The translations under genes were made by a program, and so were the position numbers. 59,770 bases of DNA from Haloparvum sedimenti (GTDB taxonomy: Archaea > Halobacteriota > Halobacteria > Halobacteriales > Haloferacaceae), in NCBI RefSeq assembly GCF_001462205.1, contig NZ_LKIR01000121.1, positions 6,521 through 66,290 on the forward strand, read 5' to 3'. Every line of letters begins with the position of its first letter. Position 1 is the first letter of the stretch. The notes below the pieces were generated by a model. That model did not search any database. It was given only the letters and a program-made list of their open reading frames with translations, and was not told the origin of the DNA. Shown in pieces: positions 1 through 14,727 of the stretch.

Positions 1-211
1 GCCATCCGGCGAGCAGACCACAGACCAGGAGCACCGGCACGTCGAGGTTGCCGCCGAACGGTCCCCCCAGCACCGACGTGAGCCCGTAGATGAGCCCCTC
101 GTCGGTCCAGACGCGGTCCGCAGCCGTCACTATCGGTCGCGTGGACAGGGCGAGCAGGACGAACGACCCGACGACGGCGGCTAGCTCGAAGGCGTCCTTT
201 GACTGAGACAT
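1..211 (-). CDS. Membrane protein, 3' part cut off by the window edge
   Basis: Reading leftwards from ATG at 211 gives 70 codons that run off the window edge without a stop. The N-terminus is short and hydrophilic (MSQSKDAFELAA). A hydrophobic helix follows at about residues 9-28, and a second hydrophobic stretch begins near residue 60, so this is a membrane protein. It starts 18 bp after the stop of the tubulin-like gene on the same strand, which suggests one transcript and a role in the same system. I do not recognise the family. No clear ribosome binding site is visible. Confidence 0.6.
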   Translation of the reverse strand, partial: MSQSKDAFELAAVVGSFVLLALSTRPIVTAADRVWTDEGLIYGLTSVLGGPFGGNLDVPVLLVCGLLAGW

Positions 212-229
212 GGTGGCGGAACGCTCGCC

Positions 230-3200
230 TCAGTCGTCGGCCTCGGTCGCCGTCTGAGTGATGTCGATGCTGCTCTCGTAGGTCCCCGTCGTCAACATGT
301 CGAGGAAGATATCCCGCGGGTCGACGCCGTCGTCGGACTGGTCCGCGATCATCACCTCGGACATGAACTCCTGGTCCACGTTACGGACCGTGTCGCGGGC
401 GACGAAGGCGCCGAAGTCGGCGCCCTCGTGCGGCTCGCCGTCCGCGGTGGCCCACTCGTGCATCGTGCTCCAGCGGTCCCACATCCCGCCGACGCCGATC
501 GTGTGGTGTGCGGGGATGAAGCCGCCGCTCGCGCTCTCCTCGTAGAGGTCCTTGTAGCCGTTCCCCTTGGTGACCAGCTTGAGGTTGTCCAGGAACAGCC
601 CGCCGATGAACGTCACCATCGTGATCTCGTCGCGGTCGCCGGCGCTGTGGCGACCCACGTTGTACATGTCGTTGTTCACGATCTCGACCTCGTTCTCGAA
701 GGCCTCCCTAACCGCCGTGTACTGCTCGGTCATCGTATCCTCCTCCTCGTAGGCACGGGAGAGGTAGACGGGGTTGACCCGGATGTTCCCGAAGTTGGGC
801 TCGACCTCCTGTCCCTTCGCGGTCGGGCTGAGGTCGTTGATCGGGGCGCGGCCGTCGTCCCCGTTCAGGAGGCTGCGGACCGAGTTGACGAGCTCCCGAA
901 CGATCCGGTCCTCGTTCGCTTCGAGAATGTCGGATTCCGCGATGTCGTGGGCCCCCGCGACGTGTTCCTGCTTGGCCTCGTCGTGGAACACGTACGGATG
1001 GTCGTTGCCGTCGGACCGGCCGACGCTTCCCTCGAGTTCGACCTCGTAGTGACCGCGGTAGTTGCGGGCGAAGTCGCGACCGTACGTCTCGCGACCCTGG
1101 TCGTACTCGTGGGCCTTGGGAAGCTCCACGTCGCTGAGCTCGACGCTGCCACGCGAGAGACCGCGGAGAAGCTCGAACCGCTGGATGAGGCCGGGCGCCT
1201 CGTCGTTCTCGCCGGTGAGCTTCGCCAGCTGGTCGCCGGACTTCGCGTGCTCTTTCGCGATCGGACCGAGGTACGCCTCCACGAGCGTGCGCGTCGTCGC
1301 CGTCTCGAAGTCGTCCGAGACGGAGCTCGGGTCCTGCGTATCGACCGCGTCCAGCGAGAGGACGCCCTTGAGCAGCGTGCCGGGGTCCTCGGCGTCGGTG
1401 TTGCGCAGCGCCTTCGAGACGGTGGTCTTGGTGTCGGCCGCGTCGAGCCCCTGCGGGAGGGAGATGGTCTTCGACTCCGCACCGCGACCGTCCGTCGTGT
1501 AGGTGAGGCTGTGAGAGACGAACTCCCCGCCCTCGCTGAACGCCGACTCGAACGCATCGACGAGCGAGTCGATCAGCTCGTCGCGTTTCGTCTCGATCTC
1601 GGACTCGCGCCGGAGGCGGTCGCTCGTGAACCGACAGCTGAACGTCTCCTCGACGGACGGGTCGGGGCTGTTCGGGTTGATCTCGAACCAGCCGGTCTCG
1701 CGGGCGGAGGTGACGTTCGTCTCGAACTCGTCCGAGCGGTCGTCGCCGCGACCGATGCCGAGGAAACCGGTCCCGTGGTTCAGCTTGTGCTTCTTCGCGG
1801 ACTTGACGAAGCCGAAGCCGCGCTTGATCTCCGCGACGTCGATCTCGCCGACGCCGATCTCGTCGAGCTTGTCGTTGAGCGGGGCGACGCCCTCGATCTC
1901 CATCCCGTCGAGCGGGCCGATCCCGTCGAGCGTCACCGCGTCGACGCCGTCCTCCGTGGAGGCGCTCTCGACCTTCTCGACCGCGTTCTCGACCTCGTCG
2001 ACGAGGTCGTCGATCGCCTCGACGACGCTCTCCTCGTGTTCGTTGATCGCCGCGAGGGCCTTCGCGTCGTCGTAGGCGGTCTCGTTCCACTCGTTGGCCC
2101 GCTTCGTGAGGTCGCCCGCCACGGTCTCGTGGAACTCGGACAGCTCGCCGACGGTGGTCCGGAGCGACTCGCGCTGGCTCCGCCAGCCGTCGATCATGCT
2201 CTCGAGGCTCGGGTCCTGGAACCGGTCCATCAGCAGCTCCGTGTCCGGGTCCATGATGACCTCGCGGATCGCCGTCCTGACGACCTCGGCCTCGCCCTTG
2301 TCGAGGTCAGTGTGTTCGGGCGTGATCGCCGACGCCGCCCGCCAGATCCGCGCCCGCGTCTCGATGTTCGTCAGCTCCGCCTTGAGGATCTCGACGAGGT
2401 CGTACCGGAGTTCGTCGTCCGGGCTGATCTCGGTGAACTCGGGCGTGTTCTCCAGCCGGTCGCGAATGATCCCCGGCACGTCGTTGACGAAGTCGACCGC
2501 CTCCGCCATCGGGTCGACGCTCTCGCCGTCGTCGTCGGCGTCCCCGTCCGCGTCCGGCGGCCGCACCATCGGGGCCGTGTCGATCGTCTCCTTGATCTCG
2601 TCGACGAGGTCGCCCAGGTCGGCCAGCTCGAGCGCCTCCTGTTCGAGCAGGGTGCCGCGGATGTCGTCCTCGATCCGACTGCGGAGCTGATAGGCGGCGT
2701 CGCGACCCCACTCCGTGTCGAGGCTCCCGAGACCGCCGCCGCGGAACTCCGCGCCGGCCGAGTCGGGGAACATCTCCTCGAGGTACTGCTCGATCACCTC
2801 GTAGAGGTCCGCCTCGTTCTCGAGTTCGGACTCCTTCGCGTCGAGCATCTCTCCGACCGCGTTCTCCGCCGCCTCCCGCATCTCGAGGTCGTACTTGATC
2901 GTGTACGGGGCCGCGAGCGTGAACGGCGTGTACCGCGGCGGGTTGGTCGCGATGCCGGTCGTCGGCGTGATGTAGGTGGTGAAGTTGCCGCTCCGGACCC
3001 CGTTCTGATGGGCGAGGATCGAGCGGACGACCCCCATCTCGAAGTCGTGGTTGTTGTCCTCGAGCTCCTCGAGGTGGGGAATGAGCGTGATCGTCTCGAA
3101 GGGGCCCTCGCCGGTGAGGTGGGCGTACTCCAGCTCCGAGAGCGCGGCGTGCGCGTTGGTCTTCTCGAGGCCGCCCGCCCCGTCGTGGGGGAGCACGCCG

Positions 3201-3835
3201 AAGAGGTGGACCTGTTTGTCTCCCTCCTGCAGTTCGCTGGCGAGGTCGAGCGCCATGCCGGAGCCGGTTCCGCCGCCGAGCGCGGCGACAATGTAGACCT
3301 GCTCCTCGCCGTTGCCGCCGGGCACCACGCTGTTGTCGGTGTACTCGGCGACGTGGAACAGCAGCTTGCTCACGGAGCGGCGGCGGAGCACGCCGCCGGA
3401 GAAGCCCTGATCGTTCACCTTCGAGAGCGGCTCGCGTCCCTGCTCGAGCCACCAGCTGGTGAGCCCCTGGTCCTCACAGAGGTTCCGCACCGCCGGCGGC
3501 GCCGTGAGCGACTCGGCGAGCCAGGTGTCCGGGACCATCTCGCTTATCAGGTGCGGCCCGTCGAACTCGACGAAGCCGTCATGGGGCAGGTAGTCGGTCC
3601 CCTTGTAGGCGTTCTCGACCTTCTCCTCGACGACCGAGGACCGGTCCGCGTGGAACTTGTCGTCGGTCGCGGAGTCGATGACCGTCGCCCGCAACGTCGC
3701 CGGTTCCGGCTCGTTGTACTCGTCGGTCTTCATCACCTCGTCGAGGATCCAGTCCTGCTGCATGAAGCGATAGACCACCCGACTCCCCCCACCACCGATC
3801 CCGATCAATCTGTCAGGAGTACTGCACCGTGGCAT
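230..3835 (-). CDS. Very large tubulin/FtsZ-superfamily (tubulin-like) protein
   Basis: The product is 1201 aa from the chosen ATG at 3835. The N-terminus has a nucleotide-binding glycine loop (LIGIGGGGSR, residues 10-19), followed by the tubulin/FtsZ signature GGGTGSG at residues 187-193. This is the layout of the long Pfam Tubulin_2-like family rather than of FtsZ or CetZ, which are only about 350-400 aa. The remaining ~900 residues are acidic and mostly helical by eye, with no other domain I recognise. The open frame extends to 4030, but the extra residues are Arg-rich, unlike haloarchaeal protein. A TATA-like box at 3859-3867 fits a leaderless start at 3835; ATG 3847 is the alternative. 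The gene is divergent from a membrane GTPase gene. Makarova and Koonin (2010) linked a related family with a GTPase and a vWA protein in a proposed membrane-remodelling system. Superfamily membership is firm; the role is inferred. Confidence 0.85.
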   Translation of the reverse strand: MPRCSTPDRLIGIGGGGSRVVYRFMQQDWILDEVMKTDEYNEPEPATLRATVIDSATDDKFHADRSSVVEEKVENAYKGTDYLPHDGFVEFDGPHLISEMVPDTWLAESLTAPPAVRNLCEDQGLTSWWLEQGREPLSKVNDQGFSGGVLRRRSVSKLLFHVAEYTDNSVVPGGNGEEQVYIVAALGGGTGSGMALDLASELQEGDKQVHLFGVLPHDGAGGLEKTNAHAALSELEYAHLTGEGPFETITLIPHLEELEDNNHDFEMGVVRSILAHQNGVRSGNFTTYITPTTGIATNPPRYTPFTLAAPYTIKYDLEMREAAENAVGEMLDAKESELENEADLYEVIEQYLEEMFPDSAGAEFRGGGLGSLDTEWGRDAAYQLRSRIEDDIRGTLLEQEALELADLGDLVDEIKETIDTAPMVRPPDADGDADDDGESVDPMAEAVDFVNDVPGIIRDRLENTPEFTEISPDDELRYDLVEILKAELTNIETRARIWRAASAITPEHTDLDKGEAEVVRTAIREVIMDPDTELLMDRFQDPSLESMIDGWRSQRESLRTTVGELSEFHETVAGDLTKRANEWNETAYDDAKALAAINEHEESVVEAIDDLVDEVENAVEKVESASTEDGVDAVTLDGIGPLDGMEIEGVAPLNDKLDEIGVGEIDVAEIKRGFGFVKSAKKHKLNHGTGFLGIGRGDDRSDEFETNVTSARETGWFEINPNSPDPSVEETFSCRFTSDRLRRESEIETKRDELIDSLVDAFESAFSEGGEFVSHSLTYTTDGRGAESKTISLPQGLDAADTKTTVSKALRNTDAEDPGTLLKGVLSLDAVDTQDPSSVSDDFETATTRTLVEAYLGPIAKEHAKSGDQLAKLTGENDEAPGLIQRFELLRGLSRGSVELSDVELPKAHEYDQGRETYGRDFARNYRGHYEVELEGSVGRSDGNDHPYVFHDEAKQEHVAGAHDIAESDILEANEDRIVRELVNSVRSLLNGDDGRAPINDLSPTAKGQEVEPNFGNIRVNPVYLSRAYEEEDTMTEQYTAVREAFENEVEIVNNDMYNVGRHSAGDRDEITMVTFIGGLFLDNLKLVTKGNGYKDLYEESASGGFIPAHHTIGVGGMWDRWSTMHEWATADGEPHEGADFGAFVARDTVRNVDQEFMSEVMIADQSDDGVDPRDIFLDMLTTGTYESSIDITQTATEADD

Positions 3836-3858
3836 AACAGATGCCATGTTTCTCATCA

Positions 3859-3867
3859 CATATAAAA
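3859..3867 (-). promoter_or_regulatory. TATA-like box for the tubulin-like gene
   Basis: The minus strand reads TTTTATATG here. The box centre lies about 28 bp upstream of ATG 3835, the usual distance for a leaderless haloarchaeal transcript. It is one of the better TATA boxes in the window and decides the start codon. Confidence 0.6.
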
Positions 3868-4230
3868 CCCGATTAGAACGGGGATACTGCCACTGAATCC
3901 GGGAGCGCGGACGGTGAGTGCGTCGGCGGACGGACGCGAACAGTCCACTCACGGATTGCGGGAAGGCACGGCCTACCGCCGATGTCGCCGCCGATCCTGT
4001 TCGGGCCGGGCGAGGTCCTCGACGAGGCACGTATCAGATATGCGACCTTCATAACCCTTTTGTCAGTTCACAGATTTACGCAGACTATACACATGTTAGG
4101 GACACGACCGTCCGCCGGGGCGGAAGCAGCCGATCGTGCTGCTTCGGAACGCGCCGGAGGCGTGGGGCTGTCGGTGTGGGGACGCCCGCGAAGTGACGGT
4201 GTTTCGGTGTGCGGACCGCATCGAAGCGCC

Positions 4231-4238
4231 GGAGGAGA
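4231..4238 (+). promoter_or_regulatory. Shine-Dalgarno site of the GTPase gene
   Basis: GGAGGAGA ends 3 bases before ATG 4242. A strong Shine-Dalgarno site is uncommon in this window. It selects ATG 4242 over an in-frame upstream ATG at 4209 and implies a transcript with a real leader. Confidence 0.7.
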
Positions 4239-4241
4239 GAC

Positions 4242-6302
4242 ATGAACCCGCAGGAGCGTCGCGACTTCGCCTGGTACCTCGGCGGTATCTTGCTGACGAC
4301 GCCCGTTCTCGCCCACCTGTTCTACAACATGTGGCTGGGCGGGGGATACCTGCTGGCGCGGTACCTGACGATCGTCCCGTTCGTTCCCGACGGCGTGACC
4401 GGCGTCGAGGCGCTGCTCTCGTTCGGCTTCGGGGTCTACCTCGGCCTGTTGGCCCTCTACTCGAACGATTACCGAAAGCGGTACCAGGGGCTCCTGCTGC
4501 TGTCGGGACTCGTGGTGCTCGTCGGGGGACTGACGATCGGCGGCCTCGGGCTCGGAGTCACGCCGCTGAACGCGGCCGCGCTGGCGGCCGGGGTGCTTCT
4601 GGGCGTCGTGGTCGAGGCCGCCCGCTCCGACGCGCTCGGTCTCGAGGGGGAGCTCCGGCTGGTGAACTTCGAAAAGAGCTCGGTCGGCAACGCGGTCCGC
4701 GATGACGACGAGGCCGCGCAGTTCCGCGTCGCCTCGCTCGCGCTCGTCGCCGTCACGGTCCTCGCGGTGGTCGTCGGCAACGGGCTGTACCTCGTCGTCA
4801 GCCCGCCGGGCCTGGAGACGTACTCCTTCTCGGCGGCGTACGTCGTCGCGTCGCTGGTCTTCTTCTACTTCCTCCACGGGTTCATCACACTCGACCCGAC
4901 CGGGGAGAGCGAGGGCGCCGACCCGAACACGACCTCCTTCGAGGTCATGGGTCCCAAGCAGTCGGGGAAGACCTACTTCGCGCTCGCGCTGTTCCTCGAG
5001 GTGCTGAACAACGAGGACAAGTACGACCTCGAGGGACGGAGCAAGGGAATCCGATCGCTGGTCAACGAGTACAACAACGCCGGCGAGGACCTCCGGTGGG
5101 ACATCGCGAACACGCTCCCCGACGAGGCGGTCCCGCTCCGCTTCGAGTTCATCGCGCGGTCGCGGCTGAACCCCTCGCGGATCGAGGTGAACATGCTCGA
5201 CCACCCCGGCGAGATCCTCCCCGACGTGAGCGAGAACCTCTCCGGCGAGCGCACGGTCACCGACGGCGGGTCGCCGGACGAGGACGAAGAGGAATCGGAC
5301 GAGGTCACGGTGCCGCTTCCGGAGAATGCGACCGGCGACGATGACGAGATCCAGGCCAACAAGGTGCTCGACCGTCGGTTCAGTCGGGACGAGACGGACG
5401 CCGACGAGGAGGGGCCGGGCACCGAGGGAGAAACGGACGCCGAAGCGGACGAGACGGCACGCGACGAAGGCGATCGAAGCGCGTCGGACGACGGTGCCAC
5501 GAGCGACGTGGACACGGTCGAGGCGGACGCCTCGGCGACCAACGGAGATGCGGAGGCGACGACCGTGGAGGACACCGGGTCGTCCGTCGACGCCGATACT
5601 TCGACGGTCGACTCCGATACATCGACCGTCGACCCCGACGCCTCGACGGTCGATCCGGACGAGGAACCGGACGCGAGCGCCGAGGAGCCGTCCGGCGACG
5701 CGTCGGAGGCCGCGTCGACCGCTGCGGACGCCGAAGGCGACGAGTCCGAGGACGGGGAGGCCGACGAGGCGGAAGCGACCGACGAGGACGCCGGTCCCAC
5801 CGCGAGCGTGAACCGCGAGCCCGTCTCCGCACAGGACAAGGTGATAAAGCGGGTCGAGAACAACGTCAAGGAGTCGGACAAGCTCGTGTTCCTGCTCGAC
5901 TCGGAGCGGTTCCACGGCCACGTGCCGCCCGGCGCGTCCTCGGCCAACATGCACGTCGAAGATTTCTCGGACATCGTCGAGAACGTCGACATCGACGACG
6001 TGGTGCTCGTCGCCTCGAAGGCGGACTTCTTCATCGAGGAGTGGCAGGAGGAGAAGGGCCATCAGGCACGGCCCGAGTCGAGCGCCAAGCGGTTCGAGAG
6101 CTTCCGCGAGTACGTCGCCGAGCAACTGTTGGGTGACCTCCAGGTCAAAGGGCTCGCGCGGATGGTCAACGCCTCGACGATCCACCCGGTCTACTTCATC
6201 ACGGAGGAACGGGACGGGGAGCTCCAGCCCAAGCCGGACAAACAAGGGAACATCCAGCCGGTCGGCGTCGAGAACGTGCTCGAGTCGATCATCAGCTCCT
6301 GA
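4242..6302 (+). CDS. Polytopic membrane GTPase with an acidic insert in the G domain
   Basis: The product is 686 aa. About six membrane helices occupy residues 9-33, 54-74, 83-105, 109-126, 162-187 and 197-216. A P-loop GTPase domain follows: G1 GPKQSGKT at 237-244, a G3-like DHPGE at 320-324, and a G4-like SKAD at 592-595 after the strand VVLVA. Between G3 and the helix before G4 lies about 190 residues of Asp/Glu/Ser/Thr-rich low complexity (roughly 335-525), including a degenerate repeat of the type DTSTVD. The C-terminus (596-686) is folded again. The N-terminal helices anchor it, leaving the G domain most likely in the cytoplasm. It is the first gene of a four-gene rightward operon, divergent from the tubulin-like gene, and the next gene starts 7 bp after its stop. 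It probably belongs to the distinct GTPases found beside tubulin-like proteins. Nucleotide specificity is inferred. Confidence 0.8.
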   Translation: MNPQERRDFAWYLGGILLTTPVLAHLFYNMWLGGGYLLARYLTIVPFVPDGVTGVEALLSFGFGVYLGLLALYSNDYRKRYQGLLLLSGLVVLVGGLTIGGLGLGVTPLNAAALAAGVLLGVVVEAARSDALGLEGELRLVNFEKSSVGNAVRDDDEAAQFRVASLALVAVTVLAVVVGNGLYLVVSPPGLETYSFSAAYVVASLVFFYFLHGFITLDPTGESEGADPNTTSFEVMGPKQSGKTYFALALFLEVLNNEDKYDLEGRSKGIRSLVNEYNNAGEDLRWDIANTLPDEAVPLRFEFIARSRLNPSRIEVNMLDHPGEILPDVSENLSGERTVTDGGSPDEDEEESDEVTVPLPENATGDDDEIQANKVLDRRFSRDETDADEEGPGTEGETDAEADETARDEGDRSASDDGATSDVDTVEADASATNGDAEATTVEDTGSSVDADTSTVDSDTSTVDPDASTVDPDEEPDASAEEPSGDASEAASTAADAEGDESEDGEADEAEATDEDAGPTASVNREPVSAQDKVIKRVENNVKESDKLVFLLDSERFHGHVPPGASSANMHVEDFSDIVENVDIDDVVLVASKADFFIEEWQEEKGHQARPESSAKRFESFREYVAEQLLGDLQVKGLARMVNASTIHPVYFITEERDGELQPKPDKQGNIQPVGVENVLESIISS

Positions 6303-6309
6303 TCGACGC

Positions 6310-9300
6310 ATGGGCACGCTCACCATCTACGGAACGCAGGGGAACCAGATCGAGCCGGAAGCGGAGACGGAGGTCCGCGCGGAGGGACGCCTCGCCGCCC
6401 ACATCAACAACTCGGTCGACCTGTTCCTCGACCCGGCGTCGAACCGCGTCGTCGCCTACGTCCGCGCACGCGTCAGCGGCTCGCGACCGAACCACTACCA
6501 CGCCGAGTACGTCGGCGAAGACGGGGAGAACCTCATCGCGGGGCTTCTCGACCGGCTTCGGGCGCTCGCGGACGACGACGACCCGACCGGCGACCACGAG
6601 TGGACGCTCCTTCGCGACCGCGACCGGTTCAACCTCGCGTGGTGGACCGTCGAGCTGCAGGATCCCTCGCTGGACGACCTCGGCGTCGACCTCCGAAAGC
6701 GGCTCGCGATCGACCAACTACTCGAGGAGGGGACGGACCTCGATTTCGGTGTGGCGGGCTACCGGGCGGCCGCGACGGCGCTGGGGTACTACGCCCGCCG
6801 GTCGGGGGAGACCCCCTCGATCGGCGTGAGCAGCGGGGGACGTATCGGCCCGGTCCAGTCGGTCGACCTCGTGTTGGCCCCGGGCGAGTACGAGGGGCTC
6901 ACGCCGCTGACGGAGGGCACGGAGGCGGCGCTCCGGAGCAAACAGGACGACATCGAGGAGCTCGTCAGACAGGACTACGAGAGCCGAGCGCTCGACGCGG
7001 TCGAGAAGCTGTCGGCGACCGACGAGCTGAGCGCGTGGCAGCTCCATCAGGACCTGACGGCCCTCGAGACGTACCTCTCGTCGCTGTGGACCGACGACCC
7101 GCAGTCGGTCGAGGTCCGTTCCGACGCGGCCGAGCGCGTCGCCGAGACGGTGACCGGACTCCAACACGAGGGCCGGACGGGCGAGCTCCCCGACCCGCGA
7201 ATGCTCGACGCCGAAGCCAAAGTGGGCGTTCGCGACCGCGTGCTCGAGCGGCTCGCCGAGGAGCGCGACCGCCTGGAGGACGAGCTCCCGGAGCGAGTGC
7301 GTGGAGAGTTCGACGCCGCGACCGACGACCTGACGAGCAACACGATCACGACCGTCACGCACTCGATCGAGGCGCTGCTCGACGTGTTCGACGGACATCG
7401 GGAGTCGGTTCCGGAGTCGTGCCCGAAGCCGGCACACCGGATCGTCGACCGGCTTCGGGAACTCGAGGCGAACACCGCGCTTCCGGCCCGGGAACGCGAC
7501 GAGATCCGGAGCGAGGTGGAAGCGGAGCTCACGGAGACCCTCGAGGCGCTGAAAGAGCACAAGCGGTCGCAGTTCCTCGACCGGTTCGACCGCTGTCTGG
7601 AACAGGTCGAACTCGCGGACGTCCGCGACGACGACCTCGTGTCGTCGATCCGCCGGACCGTGGAGAGGGACGAGAGCGTCGACCGCGACTCGGACCTACT
7701 GACGCGCTTCGCCTCGGTCGTCGACGACGTGGAGTCGGCGGACGTGTTCACCGACGACGAGCGGCGCGACCTCCGGTCGGAGTTCCTCGGCCGGGTCGAG
7801 GACCGCGTCGCGCAGCTCAGGGCGAGCCGCGAGACCACGCTGAAAGAACAGCTGGAGGCGCAGCTCGACGAGATCGAACAGCGGAGCGGGAACGAGCCGA
7901 TCGACGCGGTGTACGAGCGGCTCTGGACCGCGAAACAGCAGTGCACGCTCGACCCGAACCGCGAGATCGACGACCCGGCCGTCCGGAAGTTCGCGACCCT
8001 CGTCGCGCGGCTCAACCAGGACGAGGTCATCACCCAGAACCGGAAGTCGGAGATCCGCGCGGAGCTGGACGAGCGCATCGCATCGGAGCTGGACCGGATC
8101 GAGCGAGACAAGCGCGAGGCTGACGTCGAGCGCGTCGAGGACGAACTCGATCGCGTCGTTCCCGCGATGCGGACCGAGCTCGGGGAGCAGACCACCTTCG
8201 AGCGGCTCGAAGCGCTCCGTCAATACGTCAACGGCGACCGCGACCGCCTCGACGAGCGCCGCTTCGCCCCGATCGTCTCCGTCGTGGACGAGCTGGACGA
8301 CGCCGAGAGCGGCGTCCTCGACGTGGAGGACATCCGCGAGGCTAGAGCCGAGATCCGGTCGCGCATCGAGGACCGGCAGGCGGAGATCCGGCGCGAGGAG
8401 AAGGACCGGCTCGCCTCGGACCTCGAGTCGGCGGTCGAGGAGCTGCTCGACCATTCCGGGATCTCCGCGCGAACGAGGCTGGAGATCCTCGACCGCATTC
8501 ACTCCTTCTGGACCGAGAAGGGAGGGAACCACTCGACGAGCTGGCAAGCGGTGGCCGTCGAGGTCGATCAGCGACACGAGACGTCGGTCGCGTCGCTGTA
8601 CGACCGGATCACCGACGACCTCGAGCAGGTTCGAAACCGTCGCAAGCGCACGATCCTCACGGACGAGCAGCGGCGGACGCTCAAGAACGAGCACTTCGAG
8701 TCCACGCTCGCGGACGCCATCGACCGGGCGAAAGCGGAGTACCGCGACGCCGTGGCCGAGCAGTTCGAGGGCGTGGTCATGGACGCCGTCGCGGGACTCA
8801 ACAGGTACGAGTCGGACCTCGACCGGGTGCGGGAGGACCTCGAGACGCTCGAAGCGACGAAGGCCCTGCTGGAGGGCTCGACGCGTCGAGGCGGGTCGGC
8901 AGTGCCGGACCGTCTCCGCGAGTTCGTCGAGGAGTTCCGCACGGACGACCTGTTGCATCCCGACGAGGAGAAGCAGCTACGCGAGCAGCTGTTGGCGGTA
9001 CTCAAGGAGCTGATCGAGGAACGCCGTGACCTCGAGACCGAGCTCCAGGAGGGGACGTTCCGCGACCTGCTCGAGGACTTCCAGGAGGAGGACCTCGACA
9101 CGAGCGAGCGACTGGTGGCGCTGTTCCAGTTCGAGCGGCTCCTTCAGGAAACCGGCGAGACGGTCGAACAGGAGTACATCAGGAACCCGCAGGTGCTCAG
9201 AGAACGGCGGGAGAGCCTCGCCGAGGAGACGCGGTTGGACCTCGTCGAGGAGGTCGCCGGGATCCGAGCCGAGATCGCCGACGAGTACGCCGCCGTCGTG

Positions 9301-9813
9301 ATCGACGACATCGGAACCTCGCTGGAGAACTACGTCGCCGACACCGGCGACAACGTGGACACGAACCAGGGGCTCGAGAGCTTCAACCAGTTCCTCTCGG
9401 GCTCGGAGTTCGATCCCCAGATCGCACAGCTCATCGCGGCGAAAGACCAGTTCGAACAGGCGCGGAGCCTACACGCGACCGGAGCGCTTCCGAACGGGGA
9501 GTACGAGGAGATCCAGGAGGCGCTTCACGAGAAGACGGAAGCGCTGAAGACGAACGCAAGCGCCTCCGGCGGGAGGCTGGGTGGCGTGTCGTCGAAGCTT
9601 TCGGCGGTCGTTCCGTCGGTCGGATTCCCCGACAGAAAGACGCTGGCCACGTTCGGAGCCGGCGTCGCCGTCGGCGTCGTCCTGACCGCGGCGGCGGTCG
9701 TGCTCACCGTCGGCCTCGCGGGCATCGGCCCCGTGCTCGCCCTCTCGGGGGCGGTCGTGGCGAGGCCGGTTCCCGAAGCGGTCGAAGCGCCCGGTGGGGA
9801 CGCGTCAGAATAG
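6310..9813 (+). CDS. Giant coiled-coil protein with a C-terminal membrane hairpin
   Basis: The product is 1167 aa. Residues 1 to about 130 look globular, with beta-rich stretches near the start. From about 200 to 1090 the chain is Glu/Arg/Leu-rich with heptad-like spacing and few Gly or Pro, typical of long coiled coils or stacked helices. A Gly/Ser-rich linker then precedes two hydrophobic helices at about 1112-1150 and a short acidic tail. It resembles SMC-like or dynamin-partner scaffolds in shape, but no ATP-binding P-loop or zinc hook is visible, so it is not an SMC ATPase. The gene starts 7 bp after the GTPase gene and is very likely cotranslated. A scaffold or filament tethered to the membrane by its C-terminus is the simplest reading. 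Family unknown to me. Confidence 0.75.
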   Translation: MGTLTIYGTQGNQIEPEAETEVRAEGRLAAHINNSVDLFLDPASNRVVAYVRARVSGSRPNHYHAEYVGEDGENLIAGLLDRLRALADDDDPTGDHEWTLLRDRDRFNLAWWTVELQDPSLDDLGVDLRKRLAIDQLLEEGTDLDFGVAGYRAAATALGYYARRSGETPSIGVSSGGRIGPVQSVDLVLAPGEYEGLTPLTEGTEAALRSKQDDIEELVRQDYESRALDAVEKLSATDELSAWQLHQDLTALETYLSSLWTDDPQSVEVRSDAAERVAETVTGLQHEGRTGELPDPRMLDAEAKVGVRDRVLERLAEERDRLEDELPERVRGEFDAATDDLTSNTITTVTHSIEALLDVFDGHRESVPESCPKPAHRIVDRLRELEANTALPARERDEIRSEVEAELTETLEALKEHKRSQFLDRFDRCLEQVELADVRDDDLVSSIRRTVERDESVDRDSDLLTRFASVVDDVESADVFTDDERRDLRSEFLGRVEDRVAQLRASRETTLKEQLEAQLDEIEQRSGNEPIDAVYERLWTAKQQCTLDPNREIDDPAVRKFATLVARLNQDEVITQNRKSEIRAELDERIASELDRIERDKREADVERVEDELDRVVPAMRTELGEQTTFERLEALRQYVNGDRDRLDERRFAPIVSVVDELDDAESGVLDVEDIREARAEIRSRIEDRQAEIRREEKDRLASDLESAVEELLDHSGISARTRLEILDRIHSFWTEKGGNHSTSWQAVAVEVDQRHETSVASLYDRITDDLEQVRNRRKRTILTDEQRRTLKNEHFESTLADAIDRAKAEYRDAVAEQFEGVVMDAVAGLNRYESDLDRVREDLETLEATKALLEGSTRRGGSAVPDRLREFVEEFRTDDLLHPDEEKQLREQLLAVLKELIEERRDLETELQEGTFRDLLEDFQEEDLDTSERLVALFQFERLLQETGETVEQEYIRNPQVLRERRESLAEETRLDLVEEVAGIRAEIADEYAAVVIDDIGTSLENYVADTGDNVDTNQGLESFNQFLSGSEFDPQIAQLIAAKDQFEQARSLHATGALPNGEYEEIQEALHEKTEALKTNASASGGRLGGVSSKLSAVVPSVGFPDRKTLATFGAGVAVGVVLTAAAVVLTVGLAGIGPVLALSGAVVARPVPEAVEAPGGDASE

Positions 9814-9861
9814 GTCGACGCCGGAGAGCGGTCGAGCCGACACGAACTCCCGACTCAGACG

Positions 9862-11319
9862 ATGACCTCGCACACCGCATTCACGCTCGGCGGCCGGACC
9901 TCGGCGGTCACCGTGACCGTGGGCGATCGGCCGGCGGCACTGCTGCCGGTCGGACAGAGCGTTATCCCCGCCGTCCCGGACCTCTTCTTGGCCGTGCTCG
10001 TGTTCACCCTGCTCCTCGGCCTCGCGGGTGCCGTCCTCTTCCTGTACACTCTGCGGTCTCGCGGCGACCACTCGGAGGAGTGGTCCAGACGGGACGCGGA
10101 GCAGGCCAAACAGCGGGCGGAGGAGGTTCTCGACCGTCTCGACGACCTCGTCGACGGCGATCCGGACCCCGAGAAGTGGGAGATCCCGCGACGGAAGCTG
10201 GAGGTCAGCGGCGAAGCGCTGGAGGCGGGCGAGTACACGAAAGCCCGCCAACACGCGCAGGGCGTGCTCCGGGCGGCGCAACGGAACGCGGAGAACGCCA
10301 TCGAGACCGCGGCGATGGTCGTCGAGGATCCCGCCCCCGGGGCCGACCGGGAGCGAGCGACCGACAAGCTCGAGTCCGCGAGGAGCGCGCTCGAATCAGA
10401 CCGGTACGCGGAAGCGTTCGTCCGGGCGCGCGAAGCCGACGAGGCCGCCGAGCCGGAGCTCAAGGAGCTGATCGAGACGGCACAGGCCGCCGCGGAGGCG
10501 GCCGCGTCCTCGGAGGTTGAGGCGAAGGAATCGCCCGCGGCCGCCGAACGGAGCGTGACGAAACGACGCGAGAGCCGGGACGCGTACGCCCGCGCGCTGG
10601 AGATCGCCGAGGCCCGCGACGAGGAGGAAATCGCCGAGCGACTCCGCGAGGAGATCGAGGACGCGGAGGACGCGCTTCGGGAGGCCGAGAAGCGTCGGGC
10701 CGTCGTGCGGATACGGGAGTCGACCGGGAGCGCGGCCGAGACCGCCGACCGCGGAAGCGCGCTCCGGGAGGACGGGGAGTACCGCGACGCCGAAGACGCG
10801 TTCGCGTCCGCGGCCAAGGAGTACGAACAAGCGCTGTCGGTGGCGCGCGAGCACGACCTCTCGTCGGCGATCGATCGGATCGAGACCGGTCTCGAGTGGA
10901 CTCGCGGTCGGGAGACGACCGCGCGGCTGGACGCCGCGGAGGCCGCGATCGACGACGCGGCCGAGCGCGTGACCGAAGATCCCGAAGGGGTCAGCGAGGA
11001 GATGTCGGCGCTCATGGAGCGACTGGAGGAGGAAGCACACGCCGACGAACGGGACGAGCGCGTCGATGCGTTGCGGCGCGAGGCGGGCCGCGTCAGGCTG
11101 ATCGCGAACACCGAACGCCTCGAGGGGTTGATCGAGGAGGCCGAGTCCAACATGACCGTCGACCGGATCGACACGGCGGTCGATAAGTACGAGTCGGCGC
11201 TGTCGGCCGCCGAGAAGGGGATCGACGTGGCCGACCGAAAGGGGTTCGACGACGAACAGGAGCGACTGGAACGGCTTGCGGGACTCTGCCGGGTGAGGCT
11301 CGATGACCTCCGGGAGTGA
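9862..11319 (+). CDS. Membrane-anchored helical-repeat (TPR-like) protein
   Basis: The product is 485 aa. An N-terminal segment of about 40 residues is followed by one membrane helix at about 41-63, then a long soluble region of repeated helix pairs rich in Ala, Glu and Arg. Motifs such as EALEAGEYTKARQHA and ALREDGEYRDAEDAFASA recur, the A-x-x-x-x-G-x-Y pattern of TPR-like repeats, so this is probably a protein-binding arm facing the cytoplasm. It lies 48 bp after the coiled-coil gene, and its last 17 bases overlap the next gene. A likely adaptor between the coiled-coil scaffold and the other components; the function is inferred from shape and operon only. Confidence 0.75.
   Translation: MTSHTAFTLGGRTSAVTVTVGDRPAALLPVGQSVIPAVPDLFLAVLVFTLLLGLAGAVLFLYTLRSRGDHSEEWSRRDAEQAKQRAEEVLDRLDDLVDGDPDPEKWEIPRRKLEVSGEALEAGEYTKARQHAQGVLRAAQRNAENAIETAAMVVEDPAPGADRERATDKLESARSALESDRYAEAFVRAREADEAAEPELKELIETAQAAAEAAASSEVEAKESPAAAERSVTKRRESRDAYARALEIAEARDEEEIAERLREEIEDAEDALREAEKRRAVVRIRESTGSAAETADRGSALREDGEYRDAEDAFASAAKEYEQALSVAREHDLSSAIDRIETGLEWTRGRETTARLDAAEAAIDDAAERVTEDPEGVSEEMSALMERLEEEAHADERDERVDALRREAGRVRLIANTERLEGLIEEAESNMTVDRIDTAVDKYESALSAAEKGIDVADRKGFDDEQERLERLAGLCRVRLDDLRE
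11292..11298 (+). promoter_or_regulatory. Shine-Dalgarno-like site inside the upstream gene
   Basis: GGTGAGG lies 4 bases before ATG 11303, within the end of the helical-repeat gene. It supports the early start and translational coupling of the nuclease-fold gene over the later in-frame ATG at 11393. Confidence 0.45.
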
Positions 11320-13204
11320 CCGTCCCGCTGCGGGGCGACGCCCCGTCGCATCGGGGGGGTTTCCTCGAATCGCGCTGAGGCGGATCGAGCGGATGGACTG
11401 GCGGACGTTCGAACACGTGGTGGGCGACCTCTGGGAGGAGATGGGGTACACAACGGTCGTTCGACAAGGGAGCAACGACCGGAAGATCGACGTTATCGCC
11501 CGGAAGCGTGGTCCGGGCGGAAAGACGATCGCCATCCAAGTCAAACGCTACGACCCCCGCGCCGGCAACGACGTGACGCGGACCGAGGTACAGGAGTACT
11601 ACGGCATTCATACGCAGATCGACGCCGACGAGTGCATGATCGTCACGAGCGGCGAGTTCGCCGCCGACGCCGAAGAGATCGCGGAGCGGCTCGGCGTGCG
11701 AACCGTCGACGGAGAGGAGTTCCTCCTGGCGATGGAGCGGCACGCGAGCCTCGATTTCTACGCCAAACACGCGGCCGCGCTCGGGATCGAGACCGGCGAC
11801 GTGTGGGCGGAGGTCGCCGCCCGCAGCGAGCGGTCGACCGCGGGCCGGGTCCGAACCTACTGTCGCTCCATGCTCGGACGTGCCGAGGTGCTGGCAGGGC
11901 GCGCGAGCCGGGAGGTGGGAAACGCGAACGTCCGCTGGCGGGGCGTGAGCCGACGAGCACGGCTCCGCCTCCGCGGGTACGACCCCGCGATCTACGCCGA
12001 ACGTAACGGGAACGGGCGGGACGGACCGGCCGATACCGACGGTTCCGGTGATACGTCCGCAGCGGCGCAGTCGGATCGCTCGTCGACCGCCGACCGCCTG
12101 CGTGAGGTCGGACGGCGGTTCCGCTACCGAGGGACGGATCGGATGCGTGCGCCGCCGGTCACCTGGTCGCCTGGCGGGCGGTCGCTGACCCCCTCGACCG
12201 GCGTCCGGCCCCGCCTCCGACGGTCGCAGTGGTTCAGCCGATCCCGCCAGACCGCCGCGTGTCTGATCGCGGCCGTCTGCTGTCTCCTCGTCAGCGCGGC
12301 CACGCTCGCCGGCGTCGATATCGTCGTCGGAGGGTACCCCGTAGAAGCGTTCCTCGTGGGCGGCGCTGCGGTCGGCGTCGTCGGCATCGTGGCACCGAGT
12401 CTCGTGCTGGCGCGAACGCCAGTCGAGGCCGCGCGAGCCGCCTACGCACCCCTCGCAGCCGTCCCCGTCGTCGCCTGGGTAATCGGCGGATATTCGAGCG
12501 TCGCGAGCTCGATCCACGCGCTCACCGCGCTCGTCGTGGCGGCGACCGCGGGATTCCTGATCCACACGCGGATCACGTCGGCGCGCGCGACAGACGACCC
12601 CTCGTTCAGCCTTGGCGGCGCCGAGCTGGAGTACCAAGCGATTCACAACCCGATCACGCTCGCCGGGCTCGCGGGCTGCGTACTCGTCTGGTCGGCCCTC
12701 GCGCTCGCGGCGCTCGACGCGGCCGGTCTCGTCGGCCTCGGGAGCGGACCGCAGCGCACCCTCGCAGCGGTCGGCCTCCTGATCGTGGTCGCCGCGTGTC
12801 TCGGGTACGTCTGGAACGGCGGCGTCGTCGGCATCACGGCCTCCGTCGTCGCTTTCGGGGGCGTGGTCACCCTCGCGTCGATGCGCGCGGCGGTGCCGCT
12901 CGCGACCGGGGTCGACGCCGGCGTCCTGTTCGGCGGCGTCCTGTCGCTGCTCGTCGCCGCGACGTTCCTCCTGTTCCACACCGAACACCGGACGGTCGCG
13001 CGCTGGCAGGTCCTCGTCGGCGGCCTCTCGGCCGGGTTCCTGCTCGAGGTGACCGACTACTGGCCCGTCCGCGTCGTCGCGCGGTCGTCCGAGACCGTCG
13101 GCGGCCGAGCGCTGATCGCCGCGACCGCGGTCGCGGCGACCGCGCTGTTCTGTGCGGTGCTGTGGCTGGAGCGACGGGCGATTCGCGAGACGCTCGGGCG
13201 GTGA
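11303..13204 (+). CDS. Mrr-type restriction-endonuclease-fold domain fused to a polytopic membrane region
   Basis: The product is 633 aa. Residues 31 to about 145 match the Mrr-like PD-(D/E)xK nuclease fold. MDWRTFEHVVGDLWEEMGY opens the domain, the metal-binding Asp is D63 in KIDVIA, and Q79-x-K81 lies in IAIQVKRY. The catalytic residues appear intact. About 150 residues of charged linker follow, then 8-10 hydrophobic helices from about 310 to the C-terminus. The start at 11303 overlaps the previous gene by 17 bp and has a ribosome binding site; the conserved domain itself would also begin at ATG 11393. A membrane-held nuclease closing an operon with a GTPase and coiled-coil proteins is unusual. 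It could act in defence, in DNA handling at the membrane, or use the fold only for binding. Confidence 0.8.
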   Translation: MTSGSDRPAAGRRPVASGGFPRIALRRIERMDWRTFEHVVGDLWEEMGYTTVVRQGSNDRKIDVIARKRGPGGKTIAIQVKRYDPRAGNDVTRTEVQEYYGIHTQIDADECMIVTSGEFAADAEEIAERLGVRTVDGEEFLLAMERHASLDFYAKHAAALGIETGDVWAEVAARSERSTAGRVRTYCRSMLGRAEVLAGRASREVGNANVRWRGVSRRARLRLRGYDPAIYAERNGNGRDGPADTDGSGDTSAAAQSDRSSTADRLREVGRRFRYRGTDRMRAPPVTWSPGGRSLTPSTGVRPRLRRSQWFSRSRQTAACLIAAVCCLLVSAATLAGVDIVVGGYPVEAFLVGGAAVGVVGIVAPSLVLARTPVEAARAAYAPLAAVPVVAWVIGGYSSVASSIHALTALVVAATAGFLIHTRITSARATDDPSFSLGGAELEYQAIHNPITLAGLAGCVLVWSALALAALDAAGLVGLGSGPQRTLAAVGLLIVVAACLGYVWNGGVVGITASVVAFGGVVTLASMRAAVPLATGVDAGVLFGGVLSLLVAATFLLFHTEHRTVARWQVLVGGLSAGFLLEVTDYWPVRVVARSSETVGGRALIAATAVAATALFCAVLWLERRAIRETLGR

Positions 13205-13257: not shown

Positions 13258-14727
13258 CTACTCGTTGCCGAACATCTGGCGCATCATCGGGTGCATCTCC
13301 ATGAGCTGCTCCTCGGCGATCTCCTCGTACAGCTTGTACGTGATGGAGACCGCGAGCAGCAGGCCCGTACCGGAGACGCCGCCGACGGTGCCGAGCATGT
13401 TCGCCATGACCGCGAGCAGGCCCACGAGGGCGCCGCCGATGACGGTCACCTGCGGGATGTACCGCTCCATGACCTTCTCGACGACCTGCGGGTTGCGCCG
13501 GAAGCCGGGGATCTGCATCCCCGAGTTCTGGATCTGTTTCGCGGTCGCCTCCGGACCCATGTCCGTCGTCTCCACCCAGAAGATGGCGAAGATGGCGCCG
13601 CCGACGACCATCACCGTCAGGTCGATGGCGACGCGGACGGCGATCATCCACGGCTCCGCGGTCGTCTCACCGAGGAACCACATCCACTGGCCGGGCTGTT
13701 GGATCGGCGCGACGTAGTAGAAGAACCCCGAGATGGGGGTCCCCTGGTCGTTGTACGCGCCGAGCCACGTCGGCATCGCCGCCCACTGGGAGTTGAGGAT
13801 CTGACCGAGGAACTGGACGTTCGCTTGCAGCGCGCGAACGAGGATCATCGGCAGGACGGACGCGTAGATGAGCTTCACCGGGAATCGACCCCGTGCGCCC
13901 TTCACGCGGGCGTGCGACAGTGGGATCTCCACGCGGACCGACTCCGCGTAGACGACGACACCGAAGATGAAGATCGTCGTGAACAGCGCCAGCAGACTCC
14001 CGGGCTCGAAGAGGAGGCTCTGGAGACCGTCCGCAGTGAACGGCGATCCGATCTCCTCGTTGCCGGTGATGATCGCGACCCAGCGGGCGAAAAAGCCCGA
14101 CTGGCCGAGCGCCGAGAAGCTGAAGAAACCGCCGACGAGCTGCTGGCTCACCGCCGCGATGATGAACAGCCCAACGCCGGATCCGACGCCCCACTTGCTC
14201 ACGATCTCGTCCATGAACAGGATGAGCACGCCGCCGACGAATATCTGGGCGAAGATCAGCACCTGGACGGCGAAGACGCTCACGCCGAGCGCGCTCGCGA
14301 CCGACTGGTCAACCGGCAGGAAGCCGCCGGAGAACACCATCGGCGCGGCCGTCAGGCCCGTGACGATGAACACCAACAGCTTCTGGAGCCCCTGGTAGAG
14401 CACCTGGTCGCGCGGGTCGCTCGTGTCCAGCCCGAGCAGGTTGGCGCCGCCGAGCAGCTGCAGCACGATGGACGCCGTGACGATGGGTCCGATCCCCACC
14501 TGCAGCAGCGAGCCGGACTCCCCGGCCAGGATCGAGCGGAACTGGCCGAAGAAGTCGCTGCTCTGGCCCGCCGCCAGCCCGAACGGGTTGATGTTGGTGA
14601 GGAAGAAGTACACCATCAGGATCCCGGCGGTCCACAGCAGCTTCCGTTTGAACGGAACGTGGCCCTCGGGACGCCGGACTGTCGGCATCCGCGTGAGTAC
14701 CGGTTCGGCGGCGTCCTTCCAGCTCAT
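13258..14727 (-). CDS. secY: Preprotein translocase subunit SecY
   Basis: At 489 aa this is the usual length of haloarchaeal SecY. It has ten hydrophobic helices and the typical start (MSWKDAAEPVLTRMPTVRRP), with the plug-region segment following TM1 (TNINPFGLAAG). It forms the protein-conducting pore with SecE and SecG (Sec61 beta/gamma), inserting membrane proteins cotranslationally and exporting unfolded ones. It is the last gene of the ribosomal operon, 3 bp after L15, the usual archaeal position, and is followed by a T-tract. Identity is secure. Confidence 0.97.
   Translation of the reverse strand: MSWKDAAEPVLTRMPTVRRPEGHVPFKRKLLWTAGILMVYFFLTNINPFGLAAGQSSDFFGQFRSILAGESGSLLQVGIGPIVTASIVLQLLGGANLLGLDTSDPRDQVLYQGLQKLLVFIVTGLTAAPMVFSGGFLPVDQSVASALGVSVFAVQVLIFAQIFVGGVLILFMDEIVSKWGVGSGVGLFIIAAVSQQLVGGFFSFSALGQSGFFARWVAIITGNEEIGSPFTADGLQSLLFEPGSLLALFTTIFIFGVVVYAESVRVEIPLSHARVKGARGRFPVKLIYASVLPMILVRALQANVQFLGQILNSQWAAMPTWLGAYNDQGTPISGFFYYVAPIQQPGQWMWFLGETTAEPWMIAVRVAIDLTVMVVGGAIFAIFWVETTDMGPEATAKQIQNSGMQIPGFRRNPQVVEKVMERYIPQVTVIGGALVGLLAVMANMLGTVGGVSGTGLLLAVSITYKLYEEIAEEQLMEMHPMMRQMFGNE

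Follow-up and report, generated by a model that had tools for sequence, protein, structure and literature searches.

The left end of the stretch of Haloparvum sedimenti DNA considered here (the window: 59,770 nucleotides, bases 6521-66290 of a 283-kb contig in a 3.24-Mb haloarchaeal assembly) carries a gene cluster that encodes a divergent tubulin-like protein, T, polytopic membrane GTPases and a protein with a nuclease-type domain. The conserved core of this cluster, as seen across related genomes, consists of T, a GTPase (G) or its P-loop-less relative (M), and a protein that begins with a previously undescribed domain, here called IYD. Although the class of system is known, its archaeal anatomy, with a pseudo-GTPase and an IYD partner, is new, and the local elaboration is unusual in that this genome has two GTPase–IYD pairs and R, an Mrr-type domain fused to transmembrane helices. 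Our tentative reading is that the cluster is a haloarchaeal tubulin/double-GTPase membrane switch, enlarged in this genome and given a nuclease output for conflict.

Conservation and gene order

Homologues of T occur in 42 of the 392 genomes of the order that were surveyed (about 10%), and their distribution is patchy. In a draw of 243 genomes, used for all genome-wide searches with the GTPase family, IYD, R and the operon protein H, the GTPase family is present in 24, of which 20 have T and 4 do not, and every T-bearing genome of that draw (20 of 20) has the GTPase family, an overlap read from the two overlapping draws of 243 and 392 genomes. Gene order was counted over distinct genes in the fetched loci: in 38 of 40 cases the next gene after T, on the same strand, encodes a GTPase (24) or a pseudo-GTPase (14), and each of the 35 IYD genes comes immediately after an active GTPase gene on its own strand, at spacings of -11 to +146 bp, so that the adjacency is obligate in this sample. 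A blind genome search likewise placed the IYD match 3′ of the GTPase match in 23 of 23 instances. Two layouts recur, one in which the three genes follow each other (type A, T>G>IYD) and one in which T is followed by M and the GTPase–IYD pair forms a second unit (type B, T>M plus G>IYD).

The initial annotation of the window, made from its letters alone, had named conservation of its six-protein neighborhood outside this strain as a check, and for the core of T, GTPase and IYD protein such conservation is borne out. The six genes as one conserved unit were rejected: H was found in no other genome of the draw, the body of the large protein C has no clear relative, and R was found in only 3 of the 243 genomes (H. 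sedimenti, G021 and G164). A role in core cell division (division was also envisaged for the machine) is unlikely because the system occurs in only about a tenth of the genomes of the order, and we rejected it on this patchy distribution.

The tubulin-like protein

T, with its GGGTGSG signature, had been recognized as tubulin-like from the start, and the assignment holds (at 1,200 amino acids, rather than the 1201 first given). The protein scores 29.8 bits against Pfam Tubulin_2, for which the cut-off is 27; the GGGTGSG motif is conserved in its homologues, and its start agrees with that of the homologue in locus L010. Structure prediction, named early on as a check on the assignment, retrieved the tubulin fold: searched with Foldseek, the AlphaFold model returns almost exclusively tubulin-superfamily structures (TubZ, CetZ, FtsZ and tubulins), each at probability 1.00, of which only the first reaches E≤0.001. 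The N-terminal nucleotide-binding domain of this model is fairly good and the C-terminal part is of low confidence. A long helix at residues 310-354 of the model follows the last strand, at the place where H7 would be expected, and long helices over residues ~441-781, with a heptad excess over shuffled sequences, indicate an extended central coiled coil.

The nucleotide-binding domain with its signature and the coiled coil are features of the FtsZl1 family, in which T6-H7 elements are described as not recognizable and for which Makarova and Koonin (2010, PMC2875224) predicted vWA/GTPase/FtsZl1 operons and of which Huta_2051 is a haloarchaeal example. In the parts of that paper considered, FtsZl1 has an N-terminal FtsZ-like domain with GGGTGSG, a central coiled coil and a helical C-terminus, and T agrees in every one of these features that could be tested. 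An adjacent GTPase, membrane-associated in archaea, belongs to the described operons and is present here as well, and the link originally drawn to this class stands. In contrast, most of the described operons include vWA, whereas the H. sedimenti locus has no vWA and no kinase gene. The same parts of the paper do not mention the pseudo-GTPase, IYD or the nuclease; the IYD proteins may be among its archaeal families A1/A2, which are left undescribed in those parts.

Two side observations concern the T family. The genome G002 has a second full-length T gene (L011:5717-9031) without any GTPase beside it, flanked by an SMC-like gene and apparent Mrp-type antiporter genes, all named by reading their sequences. 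Tubulin homologues that are split or contain internal stops occur in G341:C2, G315:C52 and G274:C3, which suggests that the system is decaying in part of the genomes.

An active GTPase and its pseudo-GTPase relative

The cluster extends 4.4 kb leftward past the window edge (locus L009), across a scaffold gap of ten N (L009:6511-6520) that lies inside the M1 gene, immediately before window base 1. Only 211 bp of the M1 gene fall inside the window; further left follow the rest of M1 on the minus strand, then S, a small transmembrane protein of 306 amino acids, and the GTPase G2 (731 amino acids; P-loop GPARSGKT, DYPGE), both on the plus strand, and then pdxS. Because the window begins right after the gap, G2, S and most of M1 were missed at first. 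The membrane protein noted behind T is indeed there, but it is a P-loop-less relative of the GTPases that had gone unrecognized: M1 aligns end to end with the active family (hhalign E=2e-40), has no G-x4-GK[ST] in its P-loop region and falls into the M clade of the family tree. Judged by sequence, it is a pseudo-GTPase of the same family that has lost its P-loop. The polytopic GTPase that diverges from T, G1, was correctly described; its acidic insertion falls between the DHPGE and SKAD motifs. Across the family the G and E of DxPGE are conserved, with Glu at Walker B. A sequence search of the PDB with GTPase and IYD profiles gave no significant match.

A tree built from 57 members of the family separates the M proteins, the type B GTPases and the type A GTPases. 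In it the G002 pair provides the sister of M1 as well as that of G2, from which it appears that T, M1 and G2 travel together. G1 lies in the type A clade, sister to the GTPase of a tubulin-free locus (L083:8012-13066) in which a GTPase–IYD pair is followed by a membrane protein kinase, a position that may be a long-branch artefact. The H. sedimenti cluster is a type B system to which the G1–C pair was added, with the L083 pair, subject to the same caution, as nearest relatives. Loss of the P-loop has also occurred independently within type B, to judge from L020_2 (L020:8119-9996), a type B member whose P-loop is destroyed (GPHSSGRR) and whose gene lies immediately upstream of an R homologue.

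It is worth considering whether the cluster is one system at all. The site may be shared by two independent systems, one a tubulin module of type B comprising T, M1, G2 and S, the other a tubulin-free operon of G1, C, H and R. In favor of this, G1 and C each have the tubulin-free L083 pair as nearest relatives, two GTPase–IYD pairs in one locus were seen in no other genome, and the T and G1 blocks are divergently oriented. Yet the two halves are built from the same family of parts, share a 409-bp divergent region and sit in one insertion between secY and pdxS, the R homologue of G021 lies in a type B tubulin locus, and the G1/L083 join could be artefactual. We consider this alternative rather unlikely.

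The IYD domain

The N-termini of C and S share a domain of about 110 amino acids with the motif L.IYD..G, followed by FRAR and EQFYAVY, which also begins the proteins encoded behind GTPases in other haloarchaea. When C and S were left out of the profile of this domain, it still recovered them at 8e-11 and 7e-13, respectively, among 885 proteins, and Pfam has no family that matches the domain. The 1167-residue coiled-coil membrane protein first described in this place keeps its size and its coiled coil, but it is not only a coiled coil, since it begins with this conserved domain. When residues 1-563 of C were searched in the genomes, matches came essentially through the N-terminal region, the rest being without clear relative.

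AlphaFold models the IYD domain of C at a confidence (pLDDT) of 74, with the order b-b-a-b-b-b-a. Foldseek gave no significant match for this model; by our own sorting, the top 50 are mostly PAS, GAF, dCache, longin and roadblock structures, and the non-significant matches include an Asgard Rag-like GTPase, folliculin, Fuzzy–Inturned and TRAPP complexes. Longin domains are reported to have a PAS-like fold and to serve as GTPase platforms (PMC3521125, PMC10933270). We take the PAS/longin-like fold predicted for IYD as a lead and not as a test. The pairing of a GTPase with a co-encoded partner of such a predicted fold recalls MglA/MglB and the Rab/Rag-longin/roadblock pairs by analogy only, as the GTPase here is polytopic and TRAFAC/DO-like and the fold similarity is not significant.

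The added operon

As first described, G1, C, H and R form one rightward operon of mostly membrane-anchored parts, in which H, the membrane-anchored helical-repeat protein, and R, the membrane-fused Mrr-type protein, take the places assigned to them. The spacings of 7 bp (G1–C), 48 bp (C–H) and -17 bp (H–R) were reproduced, the last because the start of R was taken as 11303; the R homologues of L020 and L082 begin at what corresponds to 11393, and with that start the gap would be 73 bp. H was also considered as a relative of the third gene of L083, and this was rejected, as that gene encodes a transmembrane protein kinase.

R is predicted to be a membrane-anchored Mrr-type nuclease, and its D...QxK motif is intact. 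Like the Mrr restriction nucleases it has an Mrr_cat domain with this motif, but unlike them it is fused to about eight transmembrane helices and encoded in a GTPase operon rather than free-standing. PADLOC matches its Mrr domain to the ZorD and type IV restriction Mrr models. In G021, which belongs to another genus, the R homologue stands beside T, directly behind a P-loop-less GTPase-like gene in a type B tubulin locus, in which no IYD gene was found.

Likeness to double-GTPase systems

The closest parallel for the ensemble is with the double GTPase (DO-GTPase) GAP1-N2 conflict systems with tubulin or HSP70 described by Kaur et al. (2020, PMC7159879), a parallel that the initial annotation overlooked, as it did G2, the IYD domain and the fact that M1 is a pseudo-GTPase. 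Shared features are paralogous GTPases (here G2 and M1, and also G1), a Glu after the Walker B DxxG, transmembrane segments, a coiled-coil tubulin and a gene for a partner immediately after that of the GTPase, the partner in haloarchaea being the IYD protein; restriction endonuclease/Mrr effectors appear in the wider network of that study, and R has an Mrr domain. The Halorubrum sodomense locus (L084:573-16254), which encodes a tubulin, pseudo-GTPase, DnaJ-Ig, HSP70, GrpE fusion, vWA-Ig, IYD protein and GTPase, has in its HSP70, DnaJ-Ig, GrpE and vWA genes the same parts list as System 2 (Ig, immunoglobulin-like). There are differences as well: one GTPase copy here, M1, is without a P-loop, and haloarchaea combine the tubulin and HSP70 themes that are described as non-overlapping in bacteria. 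Pfam found no FNIII component among the cluster proteins, and Ig-like proteins are present in related loci. The profiles of the DO-GTPases match some members of the family, weakly, and give no match for G1 and G2 themselves. Because GAP1 was sought and not found, its place being taken by the IYD protein, we filed the cluster as DO-GTPase-like and not as a DO-GTPase/GAP1 system.

The chaperone genes invite another interpretation, in which a GTPase/tubulin scaffold would recruit HSP70-DnaJ, in the relatives, to surface or membrane proteins under envelope stress, with no link to invaders. HSP70, DnaJ-Ig, GrpE and vWA genes do occur in related loci (L017, L019 and L084), and IYD or companion proteins in relatives carry Ig-like, vWA or beta-propeller parts, domains of extracytoplasmic type. 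However, the window cluster has no chaperone genes and a nuclease instead, and such a protein-quality system seems improbable.

A possible membrane switch

In the switch that we tentatively favor, the core would be T, the P-loop-less M1 and the active G2 with its IYD partner S, and the second pair, G1–C, would head an operon that closes in H and the predicted nuclease R. The polytopic GTPases would be paired membrane switches and IYD their cytoplasmic partner, predicted to be of the PAS/longin-like fold class, whose members bind Rab, Rag and MglA GTPases. The GTPase pair together with its IYD partner would receive a signal from a change in the envelope; the GTPase would then flip, nucleate or organize T filaments and cluster or license outputs. 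In this genome R would be that output, cutting DNA close to the membrane in an anti-element response, and the role of the membrane sensor is probably in conflict. In favor of the proposal stand the conserved core and its gene order, the membership of M1 in the GTPase family, the tubulin fold of T, the parts that the H. sodomense locus shares with System 2, the intact motif of R and its place beside T in G021, the patchy distribution and the single insertion between secY and pdxS.

Several observations weigh against this proposal. No GAP1 domain was found by Pfam in the IYD proteins behind GTPases, and the DO-GTPase2 profile matches 9 of 22 family members at E≤1, weakly (best E=0.0014); the longin-like reading of IYD comes from a model at pLDDT 74 without a significant match. 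PADLOC gave no model match on the cluster apart from the Mrr domain of R, the neighbors are housekeeping and not defense genes, and the R homologue of G164 is unlinked to T. With H and the C body as orphans, some members of the operon may have nothing to do with the rest, and the left half of the cluster is joined across a scaffold gap.

The main rival, which was also the reading of the initial annotation, is a membrane-remodeling or vesicle machine, in which the membrane would be bent or tubulated by T filaments and membrane GTPases, C serving as tether and R being incidental. Every characterized tubulin-superfamily protein polymerizes, almost all cluster parts are membrane proteins, and a membrane-remodeling association was proposed for the FtsZl1 family in the parts of PMC2875224 considered. 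On the other hand, the distribution is rare and patchy, no known membrane-bending domain was found, an intact Mrr nuclease is unexpected, and whether FtsZl1 forms filaments was left undecided by its discoverers in those same parts. We rate this rival as unlikely. In a stronger version of the switch, which we regard as doubtful, an IYD domain of longin/roadblock-like fold would be fixed to a polytopic GTPase and coupled to a membrane nuclease and a tubulin homologue; this would be a haloarchaeal immune machine outside Asgard, with an active GTPase and a catalytically dead twin working together.

Within the tubulin superfamily FtsZl1 ranks with the most divergent branches, and the literature searched held no tested function for it. 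In haloarchaea it now gains a minimal parts list (T, an active and a dead GTPase, and an IYD partner), a named GTPase–partner pair that can be tested and a link to a nuclease, and a little-studied archaeal machine is made testable. Relatives in Halorubrum, Haloferax and Haloarcula are culturable, so remodeling and conflict could be decided between.

Genomic setting

Table 1. Features of the cluster and its right border (window positions)
Feature	Position	Strand	Remarks
M1, N-terminal 70 amino acids of 478-residue polytopic pseudo-GTPase	2..211	-	rest at L009:5295-6731
T, FtsZl1-type tubulin-like, 1,200 amino acids: GTPase domain, coiled coil, conserved C-terminal block	230..3832	-	
G1, polytopic P-loop GTPase, 686 amino acids, ~5 transmembrane helices	4242..6302	+	GPKQSGKT, DHPGE, SKAD
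Acidic low-complexity insertion in G1 GTPase domain, ~180 amino acids	5274..5816	+	D/E/S/T-rich, TVDxD repeats
C, 1,167 amino acids: N-terminal IYD domain, long helical/coiled-coil body, C-terminal double transmembrane segment	6310..9813	+	
IYD domain of C, about residues 1-95	6310..6594	+	predicted bb-a-bbb-a fold
H, 485 amino acids, one N-terminal transmembrane helix, then helical repeats	9862..11319	+	orphan
R, predicted Mrr-type nuclease domain and ~8 transmembrane helices, 633 amino acids	11303..13204	+	603 amino acids if start 11393
Mrr_cat domain of R with D...QxK motif (KIDVIARKRGPGGKTIAIQVKRY)	11384..11725	+	Pfam E=5e-27
secY	13258..14727	-	right border of insertion; pdxS directly follows secY in relatives

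The whole cluster, about 17 kb, sits between secY and pdxS in H. sedimenti (Table 1). In G008 and G022 these two genes are neighbors, separated by 122 and ~150 bp, so one insertion site holds the entire cluster. The interval holds one open reading frame in G020 and a transporter operon in G016; its cargo differs between genera (G000, G016 and G020), which suggests a tolerated insertion site.

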